A stretch of 38,272 nucleotides of DNA from an uncultured Bacteroidales bacterium (GTDB taxonomy: Bacteria > Bacteroidota > Bacteroidia > Bacteroidales > F082), in NCBI GenBank assembly GCA_900318465.1, contig ONKQ01000039.1:1-38272 (forward strand). The letters are read 5' to 3'. Both the position numbers and the translations under genes were made by a program. Under the pieces are notes generated by a model. It was not told the DNA's origin and made no database searches. It saw only the letters and a list, made by a program, of their open reading frames with translations. Positions 11,864 through 28,769 of the stretch are shown here, in pieces (the first letter of the stretch is position 1; every line of letters starts with the position of its first letter).

Positions 11864-11869
<6 letters not shown>
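11288..11869 (+). CDS. rdgB: XTP/dITP diphosphatase (RdgB/HAM1 family)
   Basis: 193 residues, the normal size. It hydrolyses non-canonical purine triphosphates (XTP, ITP, dITP) to monophosphates plus pyrophosphate, keeping deaminated purines out of nucleic acids. The N-terminal substrate motif FATNNKNKLREM and the catalytic acidic motif ADDTGLEV (Asp68/Asp69) are present, followed by GVYSARYAG and the C-terminal FGYDPIF and SHRGRA motifs. No clear promoter was seen in the 103 nt after ung. Its last 6 nt overlap the end of the convergent uvrA gene. Confidence 0.96.
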
Positions 11870-14828
<2,959 letters not shown>

Positions 14829-14836
<8 letters not shown>

Positions 14837-15815
14837 CAACGTTCCTCATTGGTTTGTGTGTCTCCGCATATTTCCCCGTCGGGATTTTTATATCGTAACT
14901 TTTTCCCGCCGAAACTGTCAATGAGTTCGAGCGTAGCCAAGGGTTGAAATACTTCAGCATTTTGTAATTCGTCCCTTGCTCAAAGGCGAAATCCATCAAA
15001 TTGTGAATCGACTCAGTGACGGTGACGGTCTTGTATTCGTAGGGACGGTACCAGCCGTTGTCCCCGATTTGGAAGCCGTATTTTTCGGGGTTTTCGGTGA
15101 TGAGTTTCAAGGCAAGAATACGGTAAACATAGCGTTGCGTCTCCTCGGGCAGCAACATGTCGAAATAGGAATCCACACGCTGGTCGTCCATCGTCCTTGA
15201 AATGCGTCCATTGCCGCAGTTGAAAGCTGCTGCCGCTGAGATCCAACTGCCGAACTTTCGGTAGGAATCCTTCAAATACTTGCAGGCCGCAACGGTTTCT
15301 TTTTCAACATTGTAGCGCATATCCACCTCTCTGTTGATTTCGAGGTTGTATTCCTTTCCAGTGCCTTCTAAAAATTGCCAAAAACCGACTGCTTTTGAAG
15401 GCGAAACGGCATTGGTCAGTTCGCTCTCAATCATGGCCAAATACTTGAAATCCTCAGGCAGACCGTATTGCTCCATGATGGGTTCCATGACGGGGAACCA
15501 TCGCGTAGTGCGCTTCAACTGCAATAAGGTGGTGGAGTGCCTATATGTGTTGATCAATAGTTCCCTTTCCAACCGCTCGCGGACATAGAACAGGTGCAAC
15601 GGCACTTCCTCGCCGCAAAACTCCATTGTTTCAGGCAGTTCGATGTCGTGCGCGATATGGTCGATGCGGTCGAAAGCAAGGTATTCACGTTCCGTTCCCT
15701 CGTATTCTTCCAACTGCTCTTCGTTGGATTGGGCTGGCAATAAGGTGATGGCTGCGGTCACACCTATTAATATAATAGCCATGCCGCAGGCCAAGAGAAT
15801 GTTTCTTGTTCTCAT
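14829..15815 (-). CDS. Lytic transglycosylase (GH23, MltD-like) with degenerate LysM-like tail
   Basis: 328 residues from the ATG at 15815; a TTG-led extension to 15836 runs into repeat-like DNA and is unlikely. An N-terminal membrane or signal segment (about 8-30, [20 protein letters not shown]) exports the protein. The SLT domain spans about 100-250: catalytic Glu130 in AMIESEL, then [11 protein letters not shown] and [12 protein letters not shown], the usual GH23 blocks. The C-terminal 60 residues ([13 protein letters not shown]...[10 protein letters not shown]) resemble a LysM-type peptidoglycan-binding repeat. It cleaves glycan strands to 1,6-anhydromuropeptides for wall remodelling. Its stop codon overlaps the start of uvrA by 8 nt, suggesting translational coupling of two unrelated functions. 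Confidence 0.9.
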
Positions 15816-28028: not shown

Positions 28029-28496
28029 ATGAACTATCAACCCAGACTTAGAGGACAATACAAGAGTGAAATCGTGCCTGCATTGATGGAAGAATTCCAC
28101 TACAAGAGCGTGATGCAGGTTCCACGGACCGGTCAGAAAGCCGTACCGACCATCTCCCGACACGACGTCAGCAACTTCAAGCTGCGCCGTGGCAACCCCA
28201 TCGGCGTCCACGTGACGCTGCGCGGCGACAAGATGTACGAGTTTCTCGAACGCTTGGTCTGCGTGGCCCTGCCGCGTGTCCGCGACTTCAGGGGTATCAG
28301 CGACAAAGGCTTTGACGGCCGCGGCAACTACAGCTTCGGCATCACCGAACAAATCATCTTCCCCGAAATCGACATCGAAAAGGTCGTGAAGATGAACGGT
28401 ATGAACATCACCTTCGTCACGTCAGCCAAGACCGACCAAGAGGCCATGGCTTTGTTGAAGAAATTTGGTCTTCCCTTCCAAAATCAAAAAAAGTAA
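28029..28496 (+). CDS. rplE: 50S ribosomal protein L5 with an apparent 30-residue internal deletion
   Basis: L5 binds 5S rRNA and forms the central protuberance. The product is only 155 residues, against about 180-185 for the family. The N-terminal helix ([27 protein letters not shown] split over residues 6-32) and everything from [11 protein letters not shown] (residue 34) to the end ([24 protein letters not shown]) match normal L5. Missing is the conserved block of about 30 residues normally found between MQVP and TGQK, including the KIVINxGLG strand and the following helix. The break is at 28127/28128, in frame, with no stop or frameshift. L5 is essential in most bacteria, so a natural deletion here would be remarkable; an assembly or consensus error is the main alternative. 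Confidence 0.93.
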
Positions 28497-28499
28497 ACC

Positions 28500-28769
28500 A
28501 TGGCAAAAGAGTCAATGAAAGCGCGTGAGCGCAAAAGAGCGAAAATGGTCGCGAAGTACGCTGAGAAACGTGCGGCCCTGAAAGCCGCCGGCGACTACGA
28601 GGGATTGCAGAAACTGCCGAAGAACTCGAGCCCCGTCCGCCTGCACAACCGCTGCAAGCTGAGCGGCCGCCCGAAAGGCTACATGCGCCAGTTCGGCATC
28701 TCCCGTATCGATTTCCGCGAAATGGCCCTCAAAGGCCTGATCCCGGGCGTTAAGAAAGCTAGTTGGTAA
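28500..28769 (+). CDS. rpsN: 30S ribosomal protein S14 (zinc-free type)
   Basis: 89 residues, the longer form lacking the two CxxC zinc motifs (a single Cys in [17 protein letters not shown]). It is a 30S head protein needed late in assembly. The conserved C-terminal [22 protein letters not shown] is intact, and 3 nt separate it from rplE. Confidence 0.97.

Follow-up and report, generated by a model that had tools for sequence, protein, structure and literature searches.

Does the gene for ribosomal protein L5 (rplE) of this uncultured Bacteroidales bacterium encode a protein that works without part of its core, or has the assembly lost a piece of an ordinary gene? The gene lies in the window, by which we mean the whole stretch of DNA analysed, a complete contig (C17) of 38,272 nt. 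The contig belongs to a draft assembly of 3.67 Mb in 132 contigs, and the draft genome is rated 98.87% complete and 2.73% contaminated.

The rplE open reading frame (28029–28496, + strand) encodes 155 residues and is located between rplX (L24; 27707–28027, +) and rpsN (S14; 28500–28769, +), with no loss seen in either neighbor. Within it, MQVPR abuts TGQKAV at 28127/28128. An earlier note on this DNA had reported both the length and this join, and both were borne out by the reading frame and by alignment to relatives. According to the alignment, the window gene corresponds to nt 1–99 (28029–28127, +; codons 1–33) followed directly by nt 190–558 (28128–28496, +; codon 64 to the stop in the relatives' numbering) of a gene that is 558 nt long in the relatives. 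Absent are nt 100–189 (codons 34–63), cut precisely between codons and with the frame kept; the in-frame deficit, put at about 90 nt in the note, is exactly 90 nt. Compared to the nearest relative, the two edges of the junction share 0 bases, and slippage between direct repeats was rejected on the grounds that there is no microhomology at these edges in an intact relative.

As assembled, the gene resembles other bacterial uL5 genes in its operon position between rplX and rpsN, in its C-terminal domain, and in being single copy, but, unlike its relatives, it lacks 30 residues in the N-terminal half. The L5 C-terminal domain (PF00673), encoded by the part downstream of the junction, is complete, with a full-length match of 140.6 bits (cut-off 27.8). 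In contrast, the N-terminal domain (PF00281) is matched only over positions 38–57 of 57, at 18.5 bits, below the cut-off of 34.9; at an E value of 0.001, the window genome as assembled has no PF00281 match, whereas 14 of 14 control genomes do. The NCBIfam model NF000585 still calls the 155-residue product L5 (221.8 bits, cut-off 186). A second, full rplE elsewhere in the genome, for which the note had proposed a search, was not found across the 3.67-Mb assembly. The missing piece was likewise not found anywhere in it, one search returning two matches at chance level (E 0.58 and 0.999).

We then compared the locus to its relatives. Among the matches listed, the nearest named relatives are Bacteroidales genomes assembled from metagenomes, most of them of ruminant or horse gut origin. 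The 100 near-full rplE loci among these matches, in which some records are counted twice and for which one source list comprised the best 80 of 561, have lengths of 558 nt (78 loci), 543–555 nt (21 loci), and 468 nt (one locus, the window's own). An rplE match was present in 61 of 99 genomes of the genus, and the surroundings of all 61 were compared with intact L5; the 38 genomes without any rplE match are uninformative on the gap. The 90-nt gap occurs in one of the 61 records, that of the window genome, and the block is present in relatives with sequence at this position. When searched with a degenerate pattern, the joined motif was found in one of 173 genomes of the family, many of them incomplete, and again this was the window's own; the exact junction was found in 0 viral contigs. 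On these counts we rejected a shortened L5 as a trait of the clade, and the sequence comparisons make it unlikely that the gap is a trait of the group.

Four other records among the 61 were flagged at rplE. Three of these (G083, G049, and G004) involve contig ends, and rplE breaks off at nt 97 in the G083 contig and at nt 95 in the G049 contig, suggesting that this spot troubles other assemblies too. The fourth, G056 (contig C286; locus L113, 597–962), shows a different in-frame loss of 192 nt that leaves 121 codons of rplE, as well as a frame-breaking loss in rpsK.

The note had placed a strand-helix block with the motif KIVINxGLG between the two joined motifs. A block of this kind is indeed what is absent, although its sequence in the nearest relatives reads KISLNQGIG and not KIVINxGLG. 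The structure modelled for an intact relative places a core strand (34–44) and most of a helix (50–64) in the lost codons 34–63, and in an alignment of 42 relatives the block is almost invariant. AlphaFold2 gave a pLDDT of 49.6 and a pTM of 0.42 for the protein without the block, compared to 74.5 and 0.74 for an intact relative with it; the underlying alignments were shallow (43 and 42 sequences, respectively) and drawn from one phylum, and this predicted drop in confidence is support for an assembly error, not proof of one.

If the gap were a genuine in-frame deletion fixed in the species, the ribosome would have to function with a minimal L5 lacking the first core strand and second helix, and part of the core of an essential ribosomal protein would be dispensable. 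The intact frame, start and stop codons, the whole adjoining genes, and the lack of another rplE in the assembly are all consistent with this possibility, and a structure search with the shortened, low-confidence model still finds L5 as its top match (TM-score 0.61, compared to 0.81 for the intact model). There is also a partial precedent: a study in Escherichia coli reports that L5 is essential and required for building the central protuberance, and that eight residues of its P-site loop (73–80) can nevertheless be deleted, yielding viable, slow-growing, cold-sensitive cells (PMC10531944). That mutant likewise has a shortened L5, but the residues it loses lie outside the block missing here, and its ribosomal protein composition is described as normal (PMC10531944).

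Against a working minimal L5 stand the near invariance of the lost block and the poorer predicted fold, and the retained part of the protein carries no sign of a compensating change. Set against its nearest relative, G021, the retained rplE has 19 synonymous and five nonsynonymous codon differences. It encodes one private residue, and the average across 44 genomes is 0.3 (the comparison used 43 relatives with exactly 185 residues, out of 51 found). Furthermore, the only tuf gene of this genome is broken by the same type of junction. We therefore consider a fixed deletion very improbable. The corollary, that the species makes a 155-residue L5 and holds its 5S rRNA with a reduced protein, would additionally leave the broken tuf as a separate and unrelated assembly error, and we give it hardly any credence. 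The minimal-L5 reading, which the note had entertained, is thus not supported, for three reasons: relatives with sequence at this position contain the block, tuf is broken in the same way, and the retained L5 carries no sign of adaptation.

The tuf result comes from a control within the same genome, in which we compared 20 kb around rpoB and 16 kb around tsf with five relatives each. Where the tsf stretch could be aligned, no comparable loss was found. The rpoB stretch contains two losses, both in tuf (locus L187, 14907–16134, corresponding to approximately 152906–154133 of contig C90 of the window genome, G000). One is an internal, frame-breaking loss of 26 nt; each of the four relatives whose sequence extends over this position has the stretch. 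The other removes 67–70 nt across the 3′ end of the gene and the spacer before tRNA-Trp; this stretch is present in four relatives, and for the fifth we judged the loss to be ~65 nt from the edges of the matches. Both are blunt, with zero microhomology in the four relatives examined, and they leave tuf (EF-Tu) as two open reading frames of 231 and 205 codons instead of one of 396. No other EF-Tu gene was found in the window genome, the remaining matches having at most 40% identity. We know of no bacterium that lives without EF-Tu, and since its only gene is broken here, we conclude that this assembly does contain such errors.

To see such losses across the genus, we searched 61 genomes for internal losses of at least 9 nt in 31 genes of these operons (1613 gene copies, with fusA and one open reading frame without matches left out), counting only losses that are absent from the four nearest intact copies. 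The screen returned 20 events, four of which (three in rplQ and one of 12 nt in secY) probably reflect natural variation in length and were excluded. The remaining 16 are singleton losses in conserved genes, spread over eight genomes. Nine keep the frame (rpsL, rpsC, rplN, rplE twice, rplF twice, rpsE, and rpsK) and seven break it (rplD, rpsS, rplP, rplN, rpsE, rpsK, and rpoA). As a living cell could hardly carry losses that destroy the frame of such genes, drafts of this genus carry a class of false losses that are clean and blunt. Microhomology, measured in a relative at 15 of the junctions, amounts to 0 bases in nine, one base in four, two bases in one, and four bases in one; the 16th loss adjoins a run of N and was left out of this test and of the match-length test described below. 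The in-frame share (9/16, compared to ~5 expected by chance; P ~0.05) is somewhat above one third, which is a point against pure chance. Several losses can occur in one genome: G053 (contig C61; L171) has lost 102 nt of rpsC and 90 nt of rpsK, and G004 (L141/L114) has losses in rpsL, rplP, rplN, rpsE, and rpoA, one of them at a run of N.

The flanks of the junctions share a specific length. Comparison of the window to seven relatives gave 67 exact matches of at least 70 nt, of which those of exactly 99 nt fall in only two places. One is the start of the contig (1–99), matched by three of the seven relatives; the other is 28029–28127, matched by G021, G065, and G066 and ending at the rplE junction. 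On the right flank of this junction, the longest shared stretch is 26 nt. In the rpoB/tuf stretch, 35 exact matches of at least 70 nt were found to five relatives, and the only two of exactly 99 nt end precisely at the two junctions in tuf. Three other places in the window have exact matches of 98 nt, and several have longer ones, with no associated defect; if shared sequence is the cause of the junctions, kin of those particular relatives would have to be absent from the sample. Across the genus, the exact 99-nt mark was present at one of the 14 other control junctions, rpsK of G053, where closer relatives blur the test. Separately, we note that many species of the genus have 98–100% identity over the first 99 nt of rplE, while the adjoining operon DNA is ~85–93% identical.

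True contig ends show nearly the same lengths. We examined 83 of the 264 contig termini of the window genome, of which seven read as N and were left out. Six pairs of termini share at least 20 nt at their tips: the overlap is 99 nt in three pairs, 98 nt in two, and 96 nt in one. Exact continuation into a compared relative beyond 30 nt was seen at just two termini, extending for exactly 99 nt in each case. Because the junction flanks are exactly 99 nt and true contig ends overlap by 96–99 nt, the junctions in rplE and tuf resemble contig ends that lie hidden within contigs. The exact 99-nt pattern is what a de Bruijn graph with an overlap of 99 leaves behind, and this overlap suggests a final assembler k of 100. 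A final k of 100 is the default of IDBA-UD.

Given that no relative seen has the gap, that sister losses disrupt the only tuf, that the flanks match relatives over exactly 99 nt, and that singleton losses occur throughout the genus, these comparisons indicate, with near certainty in our judgment, that the 90-nt gap arose through local misassembly of a metagenome-assembled genome and does not reflect a small L5 in the organism. In the cell, L5 is most likely an ordinary protein of ~185 residues. Weighing against an assembly error are the kept frame with its cut exactly between codons, the excess of in-frame losses in the genus, the short match on the right flank of the rplE junction, the defect-free matches of 98 nt and longer, the rarity of the 99-nt mark at the other control junctions, and the tsf stretch without a comparable loss. 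The note's other reading, a collapsed assembly, stands insofar as the exact 99-nt flank, the contig-end overlaps, and tuf all support an assembly error, but the defect looks like a blunt join at a hidden contig end rather than a collapsed repeat.

We propose the following sequence of events. The first 99 nt of rplE, being common to several related species, would cause the assembly graph to branch at that point, and some of these species were probably present in the same sample. The upstream contig would have run 99 nt into the common stretch and halted at the branch. It may then have been joined end to end with a contig resuming 90 nt further on, with the middle piece dropped. This joining most likely took place during scaffolding or local assembly; IDBA-UD is a candidate program. 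The kept frame in rplE would be luck. We also rejected the idea that the contig is coarsely chimeric, with one species on each side of the rplE junction, as identity to the relatives is similar on both sides.

A further explanation is that a deletion in a subpopulation, or a chimeric molecule in the library, was assembled in place of the main form. It is generally known that a few real reads across a junction are sufficient for a graph assembler and that microhomology-free junctions also arise in cells and libraries, both of which fit this idea. It offers no account, however, of why three junctions in one genome should all end an exact 99-nt shared stretch, and we regard it as highly unlikely.

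Literature searches found nothing on topic for in-frame deletions in rplE or ribosomal protein L5, and none for misassembly-derived deletions in ribosomal-protein or single-copy genes of metagenome-assembled genomes. The closest description is that of Chen et al. (2020), whose account of local assembly errors raises the suspicion that these are prominent in IDBA-UD assemblies and cautions that, if left uncorrected, they bring incomplete protein genes into databases (PMC7111523). The rplE case is similar to these errors in its wrong local sequence, its incomplete protein gene, and in contigs stopping at non-unique stretches. It differs in that theirs were tested by missing read support, whereas the rplE case was judged by sequence comparison; a blunt join with missing sequence is our own description and not a class that we found named in that paper (PMC7111523).

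A highly rated draft can thus hold clean, in-frame losses in essential genes that mimic biology. Shortened essential proteins from metagenomes can be tested cheaply by looking for exact cross-species matches of overlap length together with frame-breaking sister defects.

Elsewhere in the window, we observed an in-frame, low-complexity insertion of ~125 nt at 13964–14116, composed of two arrays of 14-nt repeats, in an open reading frame (11864–14839, − strand) that we take to be UvrA-like from reading its sequence. Six relatives have only ~26–29 nt between the same flanks, and a single copy of the insertion was found in the genome. It may represent a repeat of variable length within a repair gene.
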